This document shows positions 387 through 30,706 of a DNA stretch of 30,706 nucleotides, piece by piece. The DNA is from a virus. Below the pieces are notes generated by a model. The model searched no databases. It was not told the origin of the DNA and saw only the letters and a program-made list of their open reading frames with translations. The DNA is taken from positions 1-30,706 of the IMG/VR virus record IMGVR_UViG_3300030202_001801; one strand, 5' to 3'. Within the stretch, counting starts at the first letter, position 1. The number at the start of each line of letters is the position of its first letter. A program made the translations under genes and the position numbers.

Positions 387-1286
387 TCAAGCCTTTTCTT
401 TTGTTGGCTCTTCTTCTTTTGGATTTTGATTGCCCTGTTGGTAGCCATATTTAATTAAAATATCCTTTGGAACGTCAGTTTTATCGACTTCTGTTGGTTT
501 ACTTCCATAATTTGCTGACCAAAATCCCGATTTTGAAAAGTGAGAGACTCGCCTTTCCCACTCGCATATTTTTTGGATTGGTTTATCGCTATCAGGTGAA
601 CTATCGAAATCATTGTACCTTTCCTGGTTTAAGAAAGTAGATAGCATTAATATGTATTTTTGCTCAGTTTCCGCATTTTGCAAATTATATTGATTAACTC
701 CGTTGAGGATTACATCAAAACTAGTTCGTTGTAAACTTCTACGTAGAGCTAATTTAGAATTTGACTTACCTGATTTTTTACGCCAAAGACCCCAGACTTT
801 TTTGAAATTATTTTCAATATCCTTATCTAAATCCTGCCTTAAAGTTTTCTTCTTTTTAACACTTTTCTTTGTATTGTTAGTTTTTGTGTTGTGATTAGTG
901 TTATTTAGTGTTGTATGTGTATTTGTAAGTGATTGATTTAATTCATTTTCACTATCTTTTACTGTCCGTTTACTTTCCGTTTGTATTCCGTTTGCTAATC
1001 GTTTAGTTACCCTTTCTATTTCGTTTTGTACTCGTGTATTAACCAAATACTTACCATCAAATTTAAGTTTATTTTTGCTCACAAGTGCTAATAAATGTTT
1101 TCTTATGATATTTGGTTTAGTATTTAATGACCTCATTAGTCTTTCGTCTGTTGGCAATATTCCACCGCCTGATGAGTACATTAATGAAATAGCCTGAATG
1201 TATGTACCACACTCGCCACAGCTTAAACCAAAAGTACCGACAAGCCACTCATCGGGATTAAATTTAACATATCTGATTTTTGTCAT
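387..1286 (-). CDS. Phage replication initiator-like protein with DUF1376 (YdaU-like) N-terminus
   Basis: This 299-aa protein begins with a DUF1376-type module (about residues 1-95): a Y-V-K-F-N-P-D-E-W opening, a GLS..E.G.Y stretch, GGG.LP and a winged-helix-like segment. A polar Asn/Thr/Lys linker follows (about 100-150) and then a helical domain (about 150-235) with LWRKKSGK and FLNQERYNDF, the type of ending seen in phage O-like initiators and helicase loaders. Such proteins usually bind the phage origin and recruit the host replicative helicase. Its start overlaps the DnaA-IV-like gene by 23 bases, so the two are translationally linked. No Walker motif is visible, so it is not a helicase itself. 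The DUF1376 match is good; the exact replication role is inferred. Confidence 0.7.
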   Translation of the reverse strand: MTKIRYVKFNPDEWLVGTFGLSCGECGTYIQAISLMYSSGGGILPTDERLMRSLNTKPNIIRKHLLALVSKNKLKFDGKYLVNTRVQNEIERVTKRLANGIQTESKRTVKDSENELNQSLTNTHTTLNNTNHNTKTNNTKKSVKKKKTLRQDLDKDIENNFKKVWGLWRKKSGKSNSKLALRRSLQRTSFDVILNGVNQYNLQNAETEQKYILMLSTFLNQERYNDFDSSPDSDKPIQKICEWERRVSHFSKSGFWSANYGSKPTEVDKTDVPKDILIKYGYQQGNQNPKEEEPTKEKA

Positions 1287-1512
1287 TAATTGCTCCCTTC
1301 AAAGCTCTTAAAACTGTTGTTCTTTCCTTATTCATTATCTTTCCAATCTCACCATGAGATTTGCCTATATTCCATAATTTCTGATAGCAATACAACCTCG
1401 CACTTACAATAGACTTATCTTGTCTGTTGCCAAGCAAAGCTAAAACACTGGGTATATTAAACTTGTTAGTTGCTCTCTTCTTTAACTGTAGATAATTGTT
1501 GGTTGCATCCAT
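1264..1512 (-). CDS. Stand-alone DnaA domain IV-like DNA-binding protein
   Basis: This 82-aa protein matches the C-terminal DNA-binding domain of DnaA. Residues about 35-72 contain V-S-A-R....YC..KLWN.GKSHGEIGKIM followed by KERTTVLRA, which corresponds to the DnaA signature with H-T-T-V-L-H-A. The AAA+ ATPase and oligomerisation domains are missing. In DnaA this helix-turn-helix reads the DnaA box. Here it lies between an O-like initiator and a Hjc-like nuclease, so a role in marking the phage origin or competing with host DnaA at its boxes is plausible. AAAAGG lies 8 bases before the ATG. The domain call is fairly secure; the role is inferred. Confidence 0.68.
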   Translation of the reverse strand: MDATNNYLQLKKRATNKFNIPSVLALLGNRQDKSIVSARLYCYQKLWNIGKSHGEIGKIMNKERTTVLRALKGAINDKNQIC

Positions 1513-1819
1513 CCTCTTTACCTTTTAACAAATTTAAAAAGTCTGTGTTAAGTCTAGTGATAATTAAGGGTACATTTCGGTCTGATTTAGCAACAACAAA
1601 GTCGTTACCTTCAAGATATTCATAGATTTGTTTAAACCCTCTAGCCCTGACTTTACACTCAATCGTTTTTGGTTTTCCATTAATTGTAGTAATTAAATCA
1701 CCTTTGAGCCAAGTTGCACCTGATAGTGGTACTTTCTTGCTATCAAAACCATGACGTTTAAACATCTCGTTAATTTCTCGTTCAAACCTGTCCCCTTTTT
1801 GCTTACTTTTACTCGACAT
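1466..1819 (-). CDS. Hjc-like Holliday junction resolvase / PD-(D/E)XK nuclease
   Basis: This 117-aa protein is the usual size for archaeal-type and phage Hjc-like resolvases. It has K-G-D-R-F-E-R-E-I at residues 8-16 (first acidic residue, Glu13), S-G-A followed by G-D-L with Asp41, and I-E-C-K at 53-56 (Glu54, Lys56), which together give the E...D...ExK core of the PD-(D/E)XK fold. Such enzymes cut four-way junctions left by recombination-dependent replication, clearing branches before packaging. The gene overlaps the HTH regulator upstream by 11 bases and the DnaA-IV-like gene downstream by 47 bases. A general VRR-NUC-type or other DNA nuclease is the main alternative. Confidence 0.7.
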   Translation of the reverse strand: MSSKSKQKGDRFEREINEMFKRHGFDSKKVPLSGATWLKGDLITTINGKPKTIECKVRARGFKQIYEYLEGNDFVVAKSDRNVPLIITRLNTDFLNLLKGKEDGCNQQLSTVKEESN

Positions 1820-2087
1820 AATCAGGTCTTATAAGTTCTAATACTAAATCAATATCGTATAAATAATTTTTATCGGGGTAAACCTCTGTGTGCCACTGTA
1901 AAATTATATAAACCCAATGAAAAGGTATTCCACCACTCCCACCTGTTTTATCTTTAGGCATTTTCCACCGATAAATTTGACTCTCAGTAATCCCAAAACG
2001 GTCTTGTATTTTTTGGTTTCCTTTAGCAAAACTTCCATCACCTATATCCTCAACAATGGTTTTTGCCCACTCAGTTTTTCTATTCAT
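1809..2087 (-). CDS. Small HTH transcriptional regulator (Cro/CI-like position)
   Basis: This protein has 92 aa from the chosen ATG. The reading frame extends 19 codons further upstream, but that extension runs across the promoter region, whereas the ATG at 2087 has AGGAAA 8 bases ahead of it. Residues about 23-41 (QKIQDRFGITESQIYRWK) look like a helix-turn-helix: helix, turn at G-I-T, recognition helix S-Q-I-Y-R-W. The gene is first in the leftward operon, facing the rightward recombination operon, which is where a phage switch protein normally sits. It probably binds the near-palindrome at 2111-2138 and so controls itself and the opposite operon. No second repressor or integrase is seen, so lysogeny cannot be concluded. 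Confidence 0.62.
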   Translation of the reverse strand: MNRKTEWAKTIVEDIGDGSFAKGNQKIQDRFGITESQIYRWKMPKDKTGGSGGIPFHWVYIILQWHTEVYPDKNYLYDIDLVLELIRPDYVE

Positions 2088-2104
2088 TTTTTTTCCTAAA
2101 ATTG

Positions 2105-2133
2105 TTGACTTGCATTTTATACCACTGTATAAC
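2105..2133 (+). promoter_or_regulatory. Rightward sigma70-type promoter for the early recombination operon
   Basis: TTGACT (2105-2110) and TATAAC (2128-2133) are separated by exactly 17 bases, close to the bacterial sigma70 consensus. The promoter lies 36 bases upstream of the YqaJ start at 2169, with a GAAGGGAAG ribosome site between. It overlaps the leftward promoter and the near-palindrome. Confidence 0.68.
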
Positions 2134-2138
2134 ATACA
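2111..2138. promoter_or_regulatory. Candidate operator: 28-bp near-palindrome over both -10 elements
   Basis: The half-sites TGCATTTTATAC (2111-2122) and GTATAACATACA (2127-2138) are inverted copies matching at 10 of 12 positions, around a CACT spacer. The inner TTATAC/GTATAA pair is perfect. The element covers both -10 boxes of the divergent promoters, and the adjacent leftward gene encodes an HTH protein, so it is the most likely binding site for that regulator. Binding itself is inferred. Confidence 0.62.
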
Positions 2139-2144
2139 AATCAA
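2116..2144 (-). promoter_or_regulatory. Leftward sigma70-type promoter for the regulator/replication operon
   Basis: Read on the minus strand, TTGATT (2144-2139) and TATAAA (2121-2116) are separated by 17 bases and lie upstream of the regulator ATG at 2087. The two divergent promoters overlap almost completely, so they are likely mutually exclusive and jointly controlled. Confidence 0.66.
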
Positions 2145-2168
2145 ATTCTTTTGAAGGGAAGTTTTTAA

Positions 2169-3038
2169 ATGACTAAATCAATTATCGAATACACACCCAA
2201 TGACTGTAGGCAAGCACTCACTAATAATATAGCGAATGACCCTGCACGACTAGGTAAAGTAACAGCTTCAACAATTAAAGATATTTTAGGCTCAGTAGAA
2301 GAACAAAAAAGAGCAGAAAGAAAAATAAACCAAACACAAACACTACAAGAAATTGCAGAAATCGAAAACAATCCTAGAGTAATGATGGGTACATGGACAG
2401 AGTGTTTAAACAAACTCTTGTTAGAAAAGGAATTGTACATCAAAGTTAAAAATATAGAACCTTTTGTTCACCCTAATAATCCACTACACACCGCTAGTCC
2501 TGATGGGGTGGTTGAGGGTGCTGATGTATCAACTCTCGTAGAATGTAAGCATACAAGCAACTTTACTGCTGTAGATACACTCCATGCTAGATACTATCCA
2601 CAACTACAGTGGCAGTTATATGTTACAGGTTATGAGTTAGTAATTATGTCGGCAATATATGGAAATGACTACAGGTTGCCTGATAGTGTAACCTACGTGG
2701 AAAGAAATGAAGAATATATAGCTGAAATGGTCAGCAAAGTTAATGCTTGGTATGAAAAACATATTACCAATGATGAGCCTATTGTTGATGATGTTGCTGC
2801 ACCTCAATTTATTCCGTTAGATGACCGCCAGGACTACGATTACTCCACCAACAATGAGTGGGTTAATCATGCTGCAAATTATGTGATGTCAAAAAGTCAA
2901 TACGACTTACACAATACGAGCAAGAAAGAGCTTAAAAATCTTATTCCTAATGATTGTAAAACCATTGTTGGGGGTGGTGTCCAAGCAAAAATTAGTAAAA
3001 CAGGGCGAGTCACAATGAAGGAGATAACAAATGGATGA
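2169..3038 (+). CDS. YqaJ-family (lambda exonuclease-like) recombination nuclease
   Basis: This 289-aa protein has the YqaJ viral recombinase pattern in order: R-L-G-K-V-T-A-S at residues 27-34, M-M-G-T-W-T-E with Glu78, S-P-D-G-V-V with Asp112, L-V-E-C-K-H with Glu125 and Lys127, and Y-Y-P-Q-L-Q-W-Q-L-Y-V-T-G at 142-154. These are the metal-binding and catalytic positions of the PD-(D/E)XK lambda-exonuclease group, which digests one strand of duplex DNA from its end so that an annealing protein can load. It is the first gene after the rightward promoter. A candidate annealing protein and an SSB-like protein lie just downstream, as expected for a phage recombination pair. Confidence 0.88.
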   Translation: MTKSIIEYTPNDCRQALTNNIANDPARLGKVTASTIKDILGSVEEQKRAERKINQTQTLQEIAEIENNPRVMMGTWTECLNKLLLEKELYIKVKNIEPFVHPNNPLHTASPDGVVEGADVSTLVECKHTSNFTAVDTLHARYYPQLQWQLYVTGYELVIMSAIYGNDYRLPDSVTYVERNEEYIAEMVSKVNAWYEKHITNDEPIVDDVAAPQFIPLDDRQDYDYSTNNEWVNHAANYVMSKSQYDLHNTSKKELKNLIPNDCKTIVGGGVQAKISKTGRVTMKEITNG

Positions 3039-3201
3039 AAAAGTAATAAAGCAATTTAGCCATATAACTAAGTGGTTTACTAAAGCAGAAATTAAACAAT
3101 TATGTACCATGTTAATTGCACAAGATTTAGATGATGATGACAAAATCAATTTAATTTCAACTTTAATGAAAATAAAAAATGAGGTTAAGATTAATGAATA
3201 A
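3031..3201 (+). CDS. Small hypothetical protein, 56 aa
   Basis: I translated this by hand; it is short and overlaps its neighbours. The ATG at 3031 overlaps the end of the YqaJ gene (stop 3036-3038) and has a strong AAGGAG site 7-8 bases upstream, so translation is likely. The product is helical and charged, with an acidic D-L-D-D-D-D patch at about residues 32-37 and no membrane segment. It overlaps the next ORF by 8 bases. I recognise no family. Its position between exonuclease and annealing candidate suggests a recombination accessory role, which is only an inference. Confidence 0.6.
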   Translation: MDEKVIKQFSHITKWFTKAEIKQLCTMLIAQDLDDDDKINLISTLMKIKNEVKINE

Positions 3202-3361
3202 TCCTTTAGAAATTGCAGAGCAAATTAGAAGGCTCAATGAAGAAGGTTTAAACGAGCTTTGCCATATTTTATCTAATGACAACATGGCAGATAAAATGAG
3301 TTCAGCACTAAATGTAATTCATATTGAACGTAGCATACAGGAAGGAAATATAAATGAGTAA
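3194..3361 (+). CDS. Small hypothetical protein, 55 aa
   Basis: The frame can be extended five codons upstream, but the ATG at 3194 is preferred because GAGG (3181-3184) lies 9 bases upstream and the start then overlaps the preceding stop in the compact style of this operon. The product is one predicted amphipathic helical pair (E-I-A-E-Q-I-R-R-L-N-E-E-G followed by L-C-H-I-L-S) with no membrane segment. It ends 8 bases inside the next gene. Function is unknown. Confidence 0.58.
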   Translation: MNNPLEIAEQIRRLNEEGLNELCHILSNDNMADKMSSALNVIHIERSIQEGNINE

Positions 3362-3758
3362 AGAAATTCCCCAAAAAATGATTGAATTATTAAAATCAAT
3401 CGGAGAGACTAAACAGACTGCGACATGGGATTGTCATGGAACACCCGTTATTTTGCACAAAGCCATTGAAAAGATTGTAGAGCATTTGAATATTACTTTT
3501 GATGACTTTGTTTTTCACGAATTAAATTCAGAGAAAAAAATCGCAATAGTTTCTGTTCGTGGTCATTATGGTGATAGAACCTGTCAGACCACAGGTGAGG
3601 CAACACCTTACAATAATAAAAATGCCTTCACAGTTGCTATGGCTGAGAAAAGGGCAATAGATAGGTGTGTTCTTAAACTTATCGGATGTAGTGGCGATAT
3701 ATACAGCGAAATTGAAGCAGATGACTTTAAAAACTCTCGACCAAATATTAATCAATAG
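3354..3758 (+). CDS. Candidate single-strand annealing protein, 134 aa
   Basis: The N-terminal half contains WDCHGTPVILHKAIEKI, followed by a strand-rich segment (I-A-I-V-S-V-R-G-H-Y-G-D). The last third has N-A-F-T-V-A-M-A-E-K-R-A-I-D-R-C-V-L-K-L-I-G. A helix of the form A-x-x-x-A-x-x-R-A-x-x-R...L.G near the end, after a beta region, resembles the ending of Rad52/Sak-type and other phage annealing proteins. It lies two tiny genes after a YqaJ exonuclease and one gene before an SSB-like protein, the standard place for such a partner. Length is shorter than typical Sak or RecT (about 170-270 aa). GGAAGGAAATATAA gives a good ribosome site. The assignment rests mainly on context. Confidence 0.42.
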   Translation: MSKEIPQKMIELLKSIGETKQTATWDCHGTPVILHKAIEKIVEHLNITFDDFVFHELNSEKKIAIVSVRGHYGDRTCQTTGEATPYNNKNAFTVAMAEKRAIDRCVLKLIGCSGDIYSEIEADDFKNSRPNINQ

Positions 3759-3774
3759 TGAAAAGGAAATTAGA

Positions 3775-4209
3775 ATGAGCCAGTTCAAGCATAAGCCTAA
3801 TACCGGTAGTTTATTCTATCAGGAAGATAATAAAGGAAGCCCTAAACCAAATTGGAAGGGTAAAATTGTTATAGATGATGATGTTCTTAAAATGTTAATA
3901 GACGACCGAAAGACAAACGAAGAACCACCAATACTTAATTTAGCAGGATGGCAAGATGGCAATAATGCTAGAATTAATCTCAAAACATCTACCTGGAAAC
4001 CAGAACCCAAAGCAGACTTTAATTCACCGTCAAATAAAAAAAATATTTTAAAAGTAAAGGATGTCAATGAACTCAAAGACTACGATTTTTCTAAGGATAA
4101 CCAAGAAAAATTTGATGATGGTCTTAAGAGAAAGAAAGTTCCACTAACAAAAGACCCTAATGAAAGGTGGCAAGACGCAAAGGCTGACGACGAGATACCG
4201 TGGGATTAA
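3775..4209 (+). CDS. SSB-like single-stranded DNA-binding protein with acidic tip
   Basis: This protein has 144 aa from the ATG at 3775, which has AAAAGGAAAT 6-10 bases upstream. A longer frame starting inside the previous gene is unlikely. The N-terminal part has a K-P-N-T-G-S-L-F opening, a K-G-K-I-V-I strand and I-L-N-L-A-G-W-Q-D-G, typical of small OB-like phage proteins. The middle is charged and probably disordered. The last seven residues, DDEIPWD, closely resemble the acidic tip (D-D-D-I-P-F) by which bacterial SSB recruits partner proteins. It lies in the recombination operon directly after the annealing candidate. No classical SSB domain is recognised, so the call depends on tip, size and position. 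Confidence 0.5.
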   Translation: MSQFKHKPNTGSLFYQEDNKGSPKPNWKGKIVIDDDVLKMLIDDRKTNEEPPILNLAGWQDGNNARINLKTSTWKPEPKADFNSPSNKKNILKVKDVNELKDYDFSKDNQEKFDDGLKRKKVPLTKDPNERWQDAKADDEIPWD

Positions 4210-4629
4210 GTGGTTAAAGTAGTTCTACAAAGAAAGGGTTTAAGCCTTGTCCCTTCAGATGAAGCCTCCCAACAGGCTTTATCAAGGCTTAAAGCTGATG
4301 GTTACGTGGTTGCTCATATTAGTCAGCCACGTAACTTGAAGCATCATAGGTTGTTTTATGCACTAATGCGAAAAGTGTTTGAAAACCAAGAAAGATTTAA
4401 AACAATAGACGAAATGATTATTGCTATTAAAGTTGGTATTAAGCACTGTGACCAATACCCACTTAAAAATGGAAATGTTTGTTATATACCTAAATCCATT
4501 AGTTTTGAAAAAATGGAGCAATTAGAATTTAATGAATTTTTTGACAGAGCAATTAATCTAATTATTAAAGATATTATCCCTAATACTGATAAAAAGGAAC
4601 TTCTGGCAGAAGTTTACCAGATGTTATGA
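4210..4629 (+). CDS. DUF1367 (YbcN-like) phage protein
   Basis: This 139-aa protein starts with GTG immediately after the previous TAA. It resembles DUF1367/YbcN-type phage proteins: a short N-terminal strand-rich part, then Q-P-R-N-L-K-H-H-R-L-F-Y-A-L-M at about residues 40-54, then helices with F-D-R-A-I-N. Members sit in recombination/replication regions of lambdoid phages next to HNH/Ref-like genes, as here. They are associated with DNA transactions but have no firmly known activity. The next gene starts with an ATGA overlap. The start codon is inferred from the absence of an upstream alternative; the ribosome site is weak, suggesting translational coupling. Confidence 0.6.
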   Translation: MVKVVLQRKGLSLVPSDEASQQALSRLKADGYVVAHISQPRNLKHHRLFYALMRKVFENQERFKTIDEMIIAIKVGIKHCDQYPLKNGNVCYIPKSISFEKMEQLEFNEFFDRAINLIIKDIIPNTDKKELLAEVYQML

Positions 4630-4940
4630 TTATACGAGATAAGAAATGGCTTAAAGATGTCCATAGATTGCCCTGTGTTTGCACAAACCAACAAATAGGT
4701 ATTGTGGCTCACCATTTACTAAGATGCCCTTCACGCATAGGTTTATCGGGCAAGAGTGGCGACCAACATATTCTACCAATGACAGACGCAAAACATAAAG
4801 AATTACATAACATGGGAGATGAAATTAAGTTTTTTAAAAAACATGGAATTAAAGACCCTGTTGCGTTAGCAGAAAAGCTATATGAAAACAGAGAGTGTTT
4901 AAACAGTTGCATTATTGCAATCAATGAGGGGAGGTGGTAA
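4626..4940 (+). CDS. DUF968/Ref-like HNH nuclease
   Basis: This 104-aa protein contains V-A-H-H-L-L-R (His29, His30), G-L-S-G-K-S-G-D-Q-H (Asp46, His48) and D-A-K-H-K-E-L-H (His57, His61). This is the His-Me-finger arrangement of the DUF968/Ref group: metal-binding and catalytic histidines around a short beta hairpin, with a conserved G..GK.GD segment. P1 Ref is a RecA-directed DNA endonuclease; small phage relatives are thought to nick or cut recombination intermediates. It is shorter than P1 Ref, so it is a minimal nuclease domain. It overlaps the upstream gene by ATGA and the downstream ATG by one base (TAATG), showing tight coupling. Confidence 0.68.
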   Translation: MIIRDKKWLKDVHRLPCVCTNQQIGIVAHHLLRCPSRIGLSGKSGDQHILPMTDAKHKELHNMGDEIKFFKKHGIKDPVALAEKLYENRECLNSCIIAINEGRW

Positions 4941-5359
4941 TGACAATTTTTCACAAAGATAGAATGAAACAAATAGTAGATTTTAGTAATTTAAAAGTTG
5001 GTGGTTACACACCTACAGACATAGATTTTGTTATGGAAAAAAATAATAAATGGTGGGTATTTGGAGAAGTAAAAGTTCAAGGAACACCAATCACTAAAGG
5101 GCAAGATATATTGTATCAACGTCTTTGTGATAATTATTTAAAATTAAAAATACCATGTATGTATATTCTTACCCATCACAAGACACCTGTTAATGAAGTA
5201 ATAGATGTTGGTAGTTTGTTTGTAAGCATAGCAGAAATTGTTGCACCAAACAAAGCAGGTGTTTGGCAAAAAAAAAGATATATAGGCAACCATGAATTTT
5301 TTAAAGGTAAAACAATTTCTAAAATAGTAAATAGCTTTGCAAATAAGTTTGGAGATTAA
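4940..5359 (+). CDS. PD-(D/E)XK nuclease-like protein, 139 aa
   Basis: The ATG at 4940 overlaps the previous TAA, and a strong GGGGAGG site lies at 4928-4934; an in-frame GTG two codons earlier falls too close to that site. Residues 25-45 read P-T-D-I-D-F-V...K-W-W-V-F-G-E-V-K: an aspartate (27 or 29) on one strand and G-E-V-K (Glu43, Lys45) on the next, the compact core of PD-(D/E)XK enzymes. A helix with Q-D-I-L-Y-Q-R-L follows. It could be a small DNA nuclease for recombination, host-DNA breakdown or defence. No specificity region is seen. It precedes the MBL gene with a two-base gap. Confidence 0.55.
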   Translation: MTIFHKDRMKQIVDFSNLKVGGYTPTDIDFVMEKNNKWWVFGEVKVQGTPITKGQDILYQRLCDNYLKLKIPCMYILTHHKTPVNEVIDVGSLFVSIAEIVAPNKAGVWQKKRYIGNHEFFKGKTISKIVNSFANKFGD

Positions 5360-5361
5360 AA

Positions 5362-6582
5362 ATGACAGTTAAAATTACATTATTAGGTCATGCGTGTTTG
5401 CATATAGAAACACCAAAATTAAAGTTTGTAACTGACCCCTGGTTAGTTGGTAGTGCTTTTTGTGGAGGGTGGCAACCTGCATTAGTACCACCTGATAATT
5501 GGCAAGCAACAATTAATGATGTTGATTTTATTTATATAAGCCATAATCATAACGACCATTTAAATGAAAATACATTAGCATATATTCGTAAAGATATTCC
5601 TATGCTAATTCCTAATTTTCAAACAAAATCAGTTGAAAGACCATTAAGAAATTTAGGTTTTTATAATTACATACCCCTAGATTTTAATGTAGACCATATT
5701 GCAAAAGATTGTGTATTTAGAATTTACCCATCTGGCGATGAGAGAGATGATAGTGGTTTACTAATGGGTTATCAGAATTTTAAATTTCTTACATCTGTAG
5801 ATAGTAACAACTTAAACAATGGTTGGTTACCTGACAACATAACAGTTTATGCTAGTAGTTTTGCAGGTGGTGCTTCTGGTTACCCACTTTTATTTAATAA
5901 TAAAACAGAGCAGGAAAAAAATAAAATATTAAAAGATAATTTGCTAACATTAAAAAATAACGTAAAAGCAACCATAGAAAAAACCAAAGCAAAATATTAT
6001 TTACCGTATGCAGGGTTTAATTATATTAAAAATGATTACGTTAGAAAAACAGATATTTTATTAGATGTTAAAGATTATGAGGATAACAAATACCAGTTAT
6101 TACGTTCTGATTTGCATAATAAATGGACTTTTAAAACACCAACATTGGAATGTACTGCATCAAGTATTGTAAGACCAAAAAAACATGATAAAAAAAAGTT
6201 ACATAAAACACCACAAGATACATTTAGTTTAAAAGATACATATAAATATTTTGAAAATTCTAATTTTAAAAAAAACTTAAAATTATATTTAGATGTTGGT
6301 TTACCAGAATGGCATCAAATAGATTATAGTTTGTGTATTAATTTTGAAAACAATAGGATTGAACGAGTTGAAGAAAATTATAATGCACTAAATATAAAAG
6401 ACGAAAAAAACCCATGTTTATATTTATATGTAAATTGTAATGCTTGGAAATATATGCTTGAAAACAAAAGACCAATAGAGGACATATTTATTGGTAATGC
6501 TTGTCGTATAGACAGATACCCTGATAGTTATGATGTTGATAAAGATTTTTGGCATCATTTTTCAAACATTTATACAGGGTAA
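5362..6582 (+). CDS. Metallo-beta-lactamase-fold protein resembling CMP-N-acetylneuraminate hydroxylase (no Rieske domain)
   Basis: This 406-aa protein starts with ATG after a GGAG site 7 bases upstream. It opens directly with the MBL fold: L-L-G-H-A-C-L-H-I-E at residues 7-16, V-T-D-P-W-L at 23-28, and I-S-H-N-H-N-D-H with His61, His63, Asp65 and His66 as probable metal ligands. The G-H-A-C-L...T-D-P-W-L..G.AF..GW pattern is characteristic of the CMP-Neu5Ac hydroxylase (CMAH) branch, and the end (E-D-I-F-I-G-N-A-C-R-I-D-R-Y-P-D-S-Y) resembles the SCP2-like tail of that family. Vertebrate CMAH carries an N-terminal Rieske iron-sulphur domain that passes electrons; there is no room for it here, so hydroxylation cannot be assumed. 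It may act on a nucleotide sugar as a hydrolase or use another electron source. It looks more A-rich than its neighbours by eye (not computed). Confidence 0.65.
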   Translation: MTVKITLLGHACLHIETPKLKFVTDPWLVGSAFCGGWQPALVPPDNWQATINDVDFIYISHNHNDHLNENTLAYIRKDIPMLIPNFQTKSVERPLRNLGFYNYIPLDFNVDHIAKDCVFRIYPSGDERDDSGLLMGYQNFKFLTSVDSNNLNNGWLPDNITVYASSFAGGASGYPLLFNNKTEQEKNKILKDNLLTLKNNVKATIEKTKAKYYLPYAGFNYIKNDYVRKTDILLDVKDYEDNKYQLLRSDLHNKWTFKTPTLECTASSIVRPKKHDKKKLHKTPQDTFSLKDTYKYFENSNFKKNLKLYLDVGLPEWHQIDYSLCINFENNRIERVEENYNALNIKDEKNPCLYLYVNCNAWKYMLENKRPIEDIFIGNACRIDRYPDSYDVDKDFWHHFSNIYTG

Positions 6583-28138: not shown

Positions 28139-28478
28139 AATCTGCTATTACTTGGACATTTACATTACCTTTTACTTCGTGGTCTATATTTTCAGACCAT
28201 CCCATACGAGCTTTTGAATACCAAATACTTGCCTGTAAACTTTCTCCAGATTTAGCAGCTTCAATAATTGTTTTTCCAACTTCAAAATCTACTCTTTGCT
28301 TACCTACTTCTATTTCATAAGAGTAATGTTTTTCTAAAGTTTTTTTATCTATAGGTTTATTTGTTCTTTTATTAATAATCATTCTAGCGATTGCTGTAGG
28401 TTTATAACCTAAACTTGCTAAATAGATAACATCTTGTCTTTGTTGGTCATTTGGTTTGTATGGTGGTTGCCCTCTCAT
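28068..28478 (-). CDS. Terminase small subunit, 136 aa
   Basis: The N-terminal half is a helix-turn-helix: V-I-Y-L-A-S-L-G-Y-K-P-T-A-I-A-R-M-I at 17-34. It is followed by coiled-coil-like helices with E-K-H-Y-S-Y-E-I-E-V-G and a tail rich in V-K-G-N-V-N-V-Q-V-I-A, a pattern typical of small terminases, which bind the pac/cos region and activate the large subunit. It lies directly before the large subunit, overlapping it, and shares an ATGA with the DUF115-like gene upstream. Confidence 0.82.
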   Translation of the reverse strand: MRGQPPYKPNDQQRQDVIYLASLGYKPTAIARMIINKRTNKPIDKKTLEKHYSYEIEVGKQRVDFEVGKTIIEAAKSGESLQASIWYSKARMGWSENIDHEVKGNVNVQVIADFGQNEKKSIEDKTKVIDVERIEY

Positions 28479-29407
28479 GCTGCTTCCTTACCACACCATT
28501 TTAAATTTAACTCTGGATTAGCATGAAGCCCATATCCTGCTGCCAAACTTGGTAACAACCCTGTTCCATGAACTTCTATTTTTATAGGGTCAAATGCTTT
28601 CATTTGTATTAATTCTCCAATTTTTTCTAATAAACTTTCAAAATCCATACATTGTTTTGCCATGTGCGAATTTGTTTTAAACATCTCTTTGCCTAATTTA
28701 GACTGTAAGGCTACATCTCCCTCTCTGGCATCGGGGGGTTTTGGTTTATTATAAGCGTGTGCCTTGTCGTTCCGTAACGAACTGTCAAAACCAAATAAGC
28801 GAAAATCACGAAAACCCAACAAATAGCCAACGAGAAGAGACCGCAGACCAACTGTAGTAGGACCAGGGACAACTTTCCAAGTGCGATTAGCGAACTCTTC
28901 ATACAAAACTTTGCTCGGATATTCTTCACCGTAGTAATCAACTCCTGCGTGCCATAATATAATATTTGAACTTCTGAGGTTATCAAATACGGTGGGATGG
29001 CATTGTCCTGCAACCAGATATTTGCCTTTTTTATGTGGTTTTTGTACATAGTCAGCTACCCATTCTTTAGGGTCTAAGAGACAGCCATAATCAGGTTTTA
29101 TCTTTCTGGCAACCAAGTAATCGTGTGTTTTGTTACACGCTAAGATTTTGGCTTTCTTAGACATTTTTCTGATTGTAGCAAGGTCATCAGCAAGACTTGG
29201 ACCTCCACCACAGATTAAAAGTGTACCTTTTTCTGTATTTTGGTATTCAACTAAATCAGGAAGATTCCGTTTCATAATTGCTCTAGTTCTTTCAATCATT
29301 TCCCAAAAAAGAAGCCTTCCTGTGCCTTTTTTTTGCAAACTTGTCTCTTTTAGAGGTGTTTTAGCAAGTGTTTCTATTGTTAAGGCTGAGATAACACTGT
29401 CCTCCAT
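28475..29407 (-). CDS. DUF115 / MptE-like Rossmann protein, 310 aa
   Basis: The nucleotide-binding motif L-L-I-C-G-G-G-P-S-L is at 63-72, with I-L-A-C-N-K-T and K-I-K-P-D-Y-G following. V-G-L-R-S-L-L-V-G-Y-L-L-G-F-R-D-F-R-L-F-G-F-D lies further on. This is the DUF115/MptE-like fold (G-G-G-P-S-L; PD; G.R....LG....L.G.D), seen in bacterial Maf glycosyltransferases that attach nonulosonic sugars to flagellin and in pterin pyrophosphokinases. The short length fits the small versions found in phages. It overlaps the GT-B-like gene by 28 bases and the small terminase by 4. The substrate is unknown; a role in glycan modification is an inference from context. Confidence 0.72.
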   Translation of the reverse strand: MEDSVISALTIETLAKTPLKETSLQKKGTGRLLFWEMIERTRAIMKRNLPDLVEYQNTEKGTLLICGGGPSLADDLATIRKMSKKAKILACNKTHDYLVARKIKPDYGCLLDPKEWVADYVQKPHKKGKYLVAGQCHPTVFDNLRSSNIILWHAGVDYYGEEYPSKVLYEEFANRTWKVVPGPTTVGLRSLLVGYLLGFRDFRLFGFDSSLRNDKAHAYNKPKPPDAREGDVALQSKLGKEMFKTNSHMAKQCMDFESLLEKIGELIQMKAFDPIKIEVHGTGLLPSLAAGYGLHANPELNLKWCGKEAA

Positions 29408-30706
29408 CCAATAAGTTCCCCTTTTGGGTCTTTTGGAAATTTATTCTTATGAAATTCTGTAGGATTAAACAAAATTTGCTCATAAGCCTTTTTTAAATTA
29501 AAATTACAGTTAAAACTGTGTTTTTTCTGCAATTCTTTAATCGTATCAGGCAAGGTGACATCAGAGAAGTGAGGTTTTGCATGGGGAGTAGCATGATTTA
29601 CTTCGTTAAGTATATCTGATTGTACACCCTGCCCAATCTTTGCGGATAATCCATGTCCTCCTTCACCAAGCCTGACGGTAGGAATACCAGATAAAGTGGC
29701 TTCCAAGCCTGTTCCACATCCAGAAACATGAATTATACATTTAGAACTTTTTAATCTTTCTAAAAACGGTGTTCTGTCGTCTATTTCACCTAAACCTTCC
29801 CAAAAAGCAATATCTTCACTTGGATGACACCGTATAAGGGGGTTTTCAAGTTCGTCTATAGCCTTTCTGATTAACCCATATCCCTGTATTTCATGGGTTA
29901 TCTGATAAGCTAAAAAATCAAATGTTGTTTGTGACACGCCACCAAGTAATTTAACTGTTCCATATATCATTTCTTCAAATGAACGACCAAAGTTATTAAG
30001 TGTACCTGTCATGGTACAAATAACATCTCTTGTGCCTTTTTTCACATTTTTTGCTAAAAGGCTACGAGGGTTACCAGAAACAACAACATCTGCTTCAAAA
30101 TTTGTTAATATATCGTATAATTTTTTTTGTTCTTCTGAGTGTGCCAGTATTAAATCTGCATACTCTAAACATTGTTTATCAAGTGACGGTTTATACAACT
30201 CCATGAGGGGTTGCATAGGAAATAACTCTTCATCCATTAAACAGATTAAATGCCCTGCATTAATTGCTTCTGTAAATACACCTACATCCTGTGTATTAGC
30301 TGACTTCCATAAAACAACTCCAGGTGGTAAATCATGCCAGTTTTGCATCTGCCATCTATTACCAACAACAACTTTCCATCCTATCATTTGCTTGGCAAGC
30401 CATTCTCTTGAGGCTAACTCTCTTGCTGACACCTCTACAGGTAAATAAAGTATTTTTTCTACACGCCTGGTTTGTTTTTCAACCTTCTCGACTTTAGCTT
30501 TAGTTTGAGGCATATTTTCAAAACATCTTCTTAAAAGCCTTAAATAAAGACGTTCTGCCTCTTTTAAATCTAAATTTTTGAGTGTGTTCTTAGCTTTCTC
30601 TTCTAATTCTTTTAACTCTAAACTTAATATTTCTCTGGGTATAACAGCAAGTTTATTAAACTTATCTCTGTATTTTTGTCGGGTAGGGTCTGTTTCCTGC
30701 CATTTG
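29380..30706 (-). CDS. GT-B-like surface-carbohydrate biosynthesis protein (5' end beyond right edge)
   Basis: Counting from the Met at 30513, I-L-Y-L-P-V-E-V-S-A-R-E-L-A-S-R-E is at residues 21-37, L-P-P-G-V-V-L at 62-68, R-C-H-P-S-E-D at 228-234, and S-G-C-G-T-G-L-E-A at 264-272. These are the recurrent parts of the 'surface carbohydrate biosynthesis' GT-B-like family (an (L/Y)-P-V-E-x-x-x-R-E-L motif; a G-x-G-L-E-A donor-binding turn). The frame stays open another 64 codons to 30706, through a coiled-coil-like stretch (L-K-E-L-E-E-K-A), and no ribosome site lies before the Met at 30513, so the true start is probably outside the window. It likely transfers or builds a surface or virion glycan. 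Confidence 0.66.
   Translation of the reverse strand, partial: KWQETDPTRQKYRDKFNKLAVIPREILSLELKELEEKAKNTLKNLDLKEAERLYLRLLRRCFENMPQTKAKVEKVEKQTRRVEKILYLPVEVSARELASREWLAKQMIGWKVVVGNRWQMQNWHDLPPGVVLWKSANTQDVGVFTEAINAGHLICLMDEELFPMQPLMELYKPSLDKQCLEYADLILAHSEEQKKLYDILTNFEADVVVSGNPRSLLAKNVKKGTRDVICTMTGTLNNFGRSFEEMIYGTVKLLGGVSQTTFDFLAYQITHEIQGYGLIRKAIDELENPLIRCHPSEDIAFWEGLGEIDDRTPFLERLKSSKCIIHVSGCGTGLEATLSGIPTVRLGEGGHGLSAKIGQGVQSDILNEVNHATPHAKPHFSDVTLPDTIKELQKKHSFNCNFNLKKAYEQILFNPTEFHKNKFPKDPKGELIGWRTVLSQP

Follow-up and report, generated by a model that had tools for sequence, protein, structure and literature searches.

The window, that is, the whole stretch of viral DNA analysed here, comprises 30,706 bases (bases 1-30706 of a 35,028-base IMG/VR record). 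The virus is a marine-type bacterial one and SU10-like by its portal (5.9e-156) and major capsid (2.9e-70) proteins. An open reading frame (ORF) at 5362-6582 comes after an early operon with genes for a RecE-like exonuclease, a NinB/Orf-type protein, an HNH endonuclease, and a 141-aa protein, the last of which gave no family match. The gene directly upstream stops at 5359, two bases before the ATG; the frame of the ORF is intact and its ribosome site is good. The following features were assigned to the gene:

5351-5354, plus strand: GGAG, a site of ribosome-binding type, 7 bases upstream of the ORF's ATG
5362-6582, plus strand: CMAH-branch MBL/SCP2 protein without a Rieske domain (406 aa, 406 codons)
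5362-6141, plus strand: MBL (UlaG/CmlA-like) domain, residues 1-260 (Pfam, structure model, Foldseek, VIA-align)
5542-5559, plus strand: metal motif HNHNDH with H61, H63, D65, and H66, invariant in all relatives
5737-5754, plus strand: DERDDS, with D126 and the invariant R128, D130, and S131
5800-5802, plus strand: D147, the bridging-Asp position by alignment (column of CmlA D403)
5860-5886, plus strand: FAGGASGYP, the CMAH-branch signature
6013-6060, plus strand: altered loop, residues 218-233; the cellular G-x-F-x-E...RD...N-x-K-N is missing in both phage lineages
6217-6579, plus strand: SCP2-like C-terminal domain, residues 286-406

The ORF is AT-rich, with 27.6% G+C vs. 33.7% for positions 387-5359, which is consistent with an acquired gene. 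The neighbours of the gene have been exchanged between phages (L002 3778-4788; L003, downstream of the gene; L061 1-946). In L002, the place of the window's 212-aa gene, itself of no family, is occupied by a C5 cytosine DNA methyltransferase (PF00145, 6.6e-35). In L060, from a second phage lineage, the gene is followed by that for a 638-aa protein (1159-3075) which narrowly misses the cut-off for a GHKL/HSP90-type ATPase (HATPase_c, 1.6e-5). A reading of the ORF as a defence gene was dropped, as PADLOC gave no match.

An earlier note had likened the product to CMP-sialic acid hydroxylase (CMAH), citing the motifs GHAC, TDPWL, and SHNHNDH and an SCP2-like tail. All three motifs are found in the ORF, and the description of the tail was correct: folded separately, the C-terminal domain has sterol carrier protein 2 structures as its top Foldseek matches and also aligns with such structures at Z 9.3. 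The protein contains both this domain and the kept tail IG...R..P..Y...FW.HF. Pfam recognises the MBL domain only (Lactamase_B_3, 2.9e-7, above the cut-off). The structure model of the protein (mb10675de62b4) has a pLDDT of 88.4, and its top Foldseek match is the diiron oxygenase FrsH (5.6e-11). Similarly, a profile search of the PDB places FrsH (3e-14) and CmlA (1e-10) ahead of hydrolases. With residues 1-282 in VIA-align, UlaG-like hydrolases, NAPE-PLD, RNase J, and CmlA tie at a Z of about 20, so that the fold alone is no guide to chemistry. In the sequence profile alignment the columns of D126 and D147 lie near E377 and D403 of CmlA, and D126 is therefore a candidate third-site carboxylate ligand. 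In the CMAH branch, the last His of the canonical MBL set cannot be identified. No viral protein matching both domains was seen in BFVD.

Relatives were found by a FAGGASG[FY]P pattern scan of bacterial genomes followed by tblastn. The scan returned 35 stretches, 19 of them false, and L009 and L010 are false pattern matches; an earlier genome scan with a mixed alignment gave no relatives. The full-length relatives (best E 9e-76) share 26-38% identity with the phage protein over the full length, and the nearest are bacterial proteins with the layout of vertebrate CMAH. Their carriers include Marinimicrobia, Pelagibacteraceae, Prochlorococcus, Rhodobacteraceae, Lacimicrobium, Pontibacter, Chitinophaga, Helicobacter, Myxococcota, and Nitrospira, among others. 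Every intact cellular relative (n = 16) has the order Rieske-MBL-SCP2 with the Rieske domain at the N-terminus, as judged by Pfam Rieske matches and the motif CxH...CPxH. The same layout is reported for vertebrate CMAH, in which the Rieske domain occupies residues 6-112 (PMC9219854). The view of the bacterial relatives as true CMAH orthologues is based on layout, nonulosonate linkage, and motifs of mammalian CMAH. A mammalian CMAH fragment served only as a lead and a probe, and the verdict is independent of that comparison.

These full-length relatives of CMAH layout bear out the proposed membership in the CMAH branch. They rule out RNase Z, lactonase, or a plain UlaG hydrolase as the family, despite the tie in MBL fold. 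Loss of the metal ligands in homologues, which would have spoken against the proposal, is not seen, as the ligands are kept in all of them. We consider both the family membership and the loss of the Rieske domain near certain. CMAH-type genes occur in 1 of 395 Bacteroidia and in 4 of 369 genomes of a gammaproteobacterial sample, and the phage collection contained no relative of the phage protein. Two full-length CMAH-type genes are present in Helicobacter cynogastricus G004 (C5:13561-14787 and C1:94013-95254). A Halobaculum plasmid encodes a distant haloarchaeal MBL relative (L008 5007-6431; 22% identity, no Rieske match) that lies outside the CMAH tree.

The phage ORF begins at the first MBL strand, and only five in-frame codons precede the ATG, leaving no room for a Rieske domain. 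Neither the 35,028-base record nor any of four sister phage records gave a match to PF00355 (Rieske), even at E<=10. The possibility that the domain sits at another place in the phage was also rejected: the few CxH..CxxH scan matches fall outside the annotated frames and are backed by no family match. A frameshift concealing an upstream Rieske domain was rejected as well, the upstream ORFs being unrelated and variable between phages. Seven phage records span the early locus, and the gene occurs in all of them (7/7); phage records without it are, as far as checked, fragments that stop short of this locus. The Rieske domain is likewise absent from a second, diverged lineage (G789/G790; L061, L060), the TerL and portal proteins of the two lineages being only 64-69% identical. 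The complete copy in G789 has kept an N-terminal extension of 30-odd residues where the Rieske-MBL linker sits. In a midpoint-rooted tree of CMAH-type proteins, all seven phage copies group together in a single clade (100/98), nested among Rieske-bearing proteins and sister to a Marinimicrobia protein (98/91). Since the clade is single and nested in this way, the domain appears to have been lost once, in a phage ancestor, and the simplest reading of the sequences is a single loss before the two lineages split. Thus, the absence of the domain, already pointed out in the earlier note, is confirmed and turns out to be a derived loss in the phage clade.

The shortened gene is under selection. The dN/dS is about 0.17 overall, 0.15-0.24 across four phage copies, and 0.11-0.12 for the MBL half in pairs including the window copy. 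Occurrence in seven phage records at such a ratio means that the ORF is not a product of chance. Loss of an entire domain might suggest a decaying remnant, a 5'-truncated gene with no present function, but this is highly improbable: it is contradicted by the selection test (dN/dS about 0.17), and the gene has an intact frame in the phage records and a good ribosome site and is kept across two lineages with 64-69% TerL/portal identity.

From 16 Rieske-bearing proteins, 51 invariant residues were defined, of which the phage copies compared all retain 38, among them H61, H63, D65, H66, R128, D130, S131, and D147. Six are missing in both phage lineages: W38, an F and an E near 219-221 (in the loop after PYAG), N231, K233, and F379. 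These six may mark a Rieske docking face, an electron path, or the sugar pocket, and their loss may mean that the substrate has changed or that the point of electron entry is gone. That the electron domain is gone while the fold and selection are retained could also be explained by a sugar-nucleotide binder with a dominant-negative role, which would pair or compete with a host CMAH-type enzyme and block nonulosonate modification non-catalytically. We regard this as doubtful, since the phage copies have every putative metal-site residue unchanged, something that a pure binder would not require, and since few possible hosts have a CMAH-type gene (4/369 gammaproteobacteria).

The genomes of the cellular relatives point to sialic-acid-type sugars. 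A strong NeuB match (E<=1e-40) is present in 15 of the 16 carrier genomes first obtained and in all four carriers of the gammaproteobacterial sample (G005, G093, G142, and G205). Altogether, 18 of 19 distinct full-length carriers have strong NeuB vs. a background of 106/369 (29%) in the gammaproteobacterial sample. In 7 of the 19 (G005, G009, G010, G013, G014, G093, and G205), no more than 20 kb separate NeuB from the CMAH-type gene. Rough binomial estimates are 5e-8 for the linkage (with an assumed 2% chance per genome) and 2e-9 for the co-occurrence, but these figures are guides only, because the background is a single class and the carriers belong to many phyla. A nonulosonate link of the phage protein is likely. 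The lost residues W38, N231, K233, and F379, the position of the gene in a DNA-metabolism operon, and the existence of distant relatives of the NamH type (SCP2_Rv3818 plus Rieske) would suit a shifted substrate used early in infection, such as UDP-MurNAc as in NamH, a different N-acyl sugar, or some other phosphorylated metabolite. Such a shift seems unlikely, given that the phage clade falls within the N-terminal-Rieske, NeuB-linked branch and that the phage protein shares only about 24% identity with NamH-type proteins.

These phages also possess a second sugar-related module, found near the end of the window:

28475-29407, minus strand: MptE-like/Maf-type (PF01973) protein, 310 aa (Pfam 8.4e-21)
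29380-30513, minus strand: TIGR04396-like 'surface carbohydrate biosynthesis' domain (3e-23 to 1e-30, below the cut-off)

The module adjoins the terminase. Among PDB sequences, the PF01973 protein matches only 5mu5, a Maf glycosyltransferase (4.7e-8). Against the PseD model it gives 7e-8 and 31.5 bits vs. a cut-off of 670; with 310 aa it is far shorter than full Maf and has neither the length nor the score of a full Maf/PseD protein. PF01973 (Maf_flag10) is the central Maf domain and resembles the sialyltransferase Cst-II, and Maf enzymes transfer CMP-activated nonulosonates to flagellin (PMC11339370). The protein at 28475-29407 is accordingly a candidate user of CMP-nonulosonates. In L060, the CMAH-type gene and the Maf-type module are on one strand, with the module 3.2 kb downstream. 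The TIGR04396-like part forms the C-terminal half of a protein of roughly 730 aa, the N-terminal half of which lies mostly past the window (record 30662-31537). The end of the window coincides with a run of 10 N (30707-30716) that splits this glycosyltransferase/TIGR04396 protein; in most sister records covering it, a single frame of 731-790 aa encodes it.

It is mainly the co-presence of the Maf-type module that favours a CMP-nonulosonate as the substrate in the phage. The module is a circumstantial pointer, as PF01973 is also found in proteins with other functions, including other enzymes, and its co-occurrence with the CMAH-type gene within one virus group may reflect common descent. The idea that the protein acts on CMP-nonulosonates nevertheless gains support from the NeuB linkage of the cellular relatives and from the Maf-type gene of the phage.

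The best single guess, to which we give a probability of about 0.4, is that the phage enzyme is a hydroxylase acting on host CMP-nonulosonates with an outside electron donor. A phage ancestor would have acquired a CMAH-type gene (Rieske-MBL-SCP2) most like the present genes of marine Marinimicrobia and a gammaproteobacterium. The N-terminal Rieske domain would then have been lost, the MBL+SCP2 remainder staying under selection. The protein most likely still binds a host-made CMP-activated nonulosonic acid and would use the MBL metal centre to hydroxylate the N-acyl group of this sugar. A second protein, of the Rieske or ferredoxin type and provided by the host, would presumably supply the electrons, in a manner resembling the CmlA-type MBL oxygenases, which work without a fused Rieske domain. 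The altered sugar may pass to the phage's own Maf-type transferase or change the host surface.

Several observations stand against hydroxylation. According to the description in PMC9219854, the known CMAH needs both its Rieske group and cytochrome b5. Six invariant residues are lost in both phage lineages, and no phage gene was recognised as encoding a redox partner or a CMP-sugar synthetase. Furthermore, the canonical last MBL His cannot be identified, and the MBL domain ties with hydrolases (VIA-align Z about 20). The same substrate might instead meet a hydrolytic MBL centre, for example one that cleaves CMP-nonulosonates or removes the N-acyl group; less activated sugar would then change host surface or flagellar glycans during infection. 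MBL-fold hydrolases work without electrons, the HxHxDH ligands and D147 are kept, and the structural ties to hydrolases (Z about 20) also favour this reading. However, the sequence profile is nearest to diiron oxygenases, the missing last His also weighs against a hydrolase, and the CMAH family is not known for hydrolysis. We consider hydrolysis possible but rather unlikely.

Given that the Rieske domain was lost once and that nearly all of the catalytic core was kept, the virus probably alters sialic-acid-like sugars in an undescribed way. More speculatively, and with odds well short of even, these phages may own a nonulosonate branch, in which a Rieske-free CMAH-type oxygenase fed by host electron carriers is coupled to the phage Maf-type transferase, which would attach the altered sialic-acid-like sugar to virion or host proteins. 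If so, the altered sugar could, e.g., change receptors or avoid defence. The CMAH family makes the sialic acid Neu5Gc, and loss of CMAH distinguishes human sialic acid from that of most mammals. A natural, selected Rieske-free form offers a direct test of the MBL+SCP2 core on its own, and phage control of sialic-acid-like sugars is indicated for uncultured, probably marine, bacteria.

Among known systems, the UlaG/UPF0173 metal-dependent hydrolases share the MBL subfold with the phage protein (NF001911, 6.8e-8), but the match gives 32.3 bits vs. a cut-off of 144 and is limited to the first 76 residues. CmlA and FrsH, diiron MBL oxygenases, are the closest solved relatives by sequence and are also devoid of a fused Rieske domain, although their alignment to the phage protein is limited to the MBL half. 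They have an N-terminal domain of another kind, and their substrates are carrier-bound amino acids. In a more distant actinobacterial branch, the Rieske domain is at the C-terminal end and the SCP2 model takes its name from Rv3818, also known as NamH, the enzyme that hydroxylates N-acetylmuramic acid (PMC10050696). NamH has the same MBL and SCP2 core, with about 24% identity and a C-terminal Rieske domain, whereas the phage protein ends after the SCP2-like domain; the SCP2_Rv3818 model gave no match to it. On Nocardia/Rhodococcus plasmids, NamH-like genes (SCP2_Rv3818 plus Rieske) lie near a UDP-N-acetylmuramate dehydrogenase gene (L005 740-1780 and 6001-7554; L006 4751-5737 and 6001-7551). 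Both CMAH (PMC9219854) and NamH (PMC10050696) convert an N-acetyl group to N-glycolyl; hence, both known enzyme groups with the MBL/SCP2/Rieske set hydroxylate the N-acetyl group of a sugar.

A precedent for a Rieske-free CMAH was found neither in the phage collection nor in the open-access literature, both of limited coverage. With CMAH and its bacterial Rieske-MBL-SCP2 relatives, the phage protein shares the MBL + SCP2-like order, the metal-site residues, the motifs FAGGASG, SHNHxDH, and IGxxCR, and descent. In contrast to them, it has no N-terminal Rieske domain, has lost six family-invariant residues, and is encoded by a phage. As it lacks one defining feature of CMAH, the Rieske domain, it is best classed as a Rieske-free derivative of the CMAH branch rather than as a CMAH.
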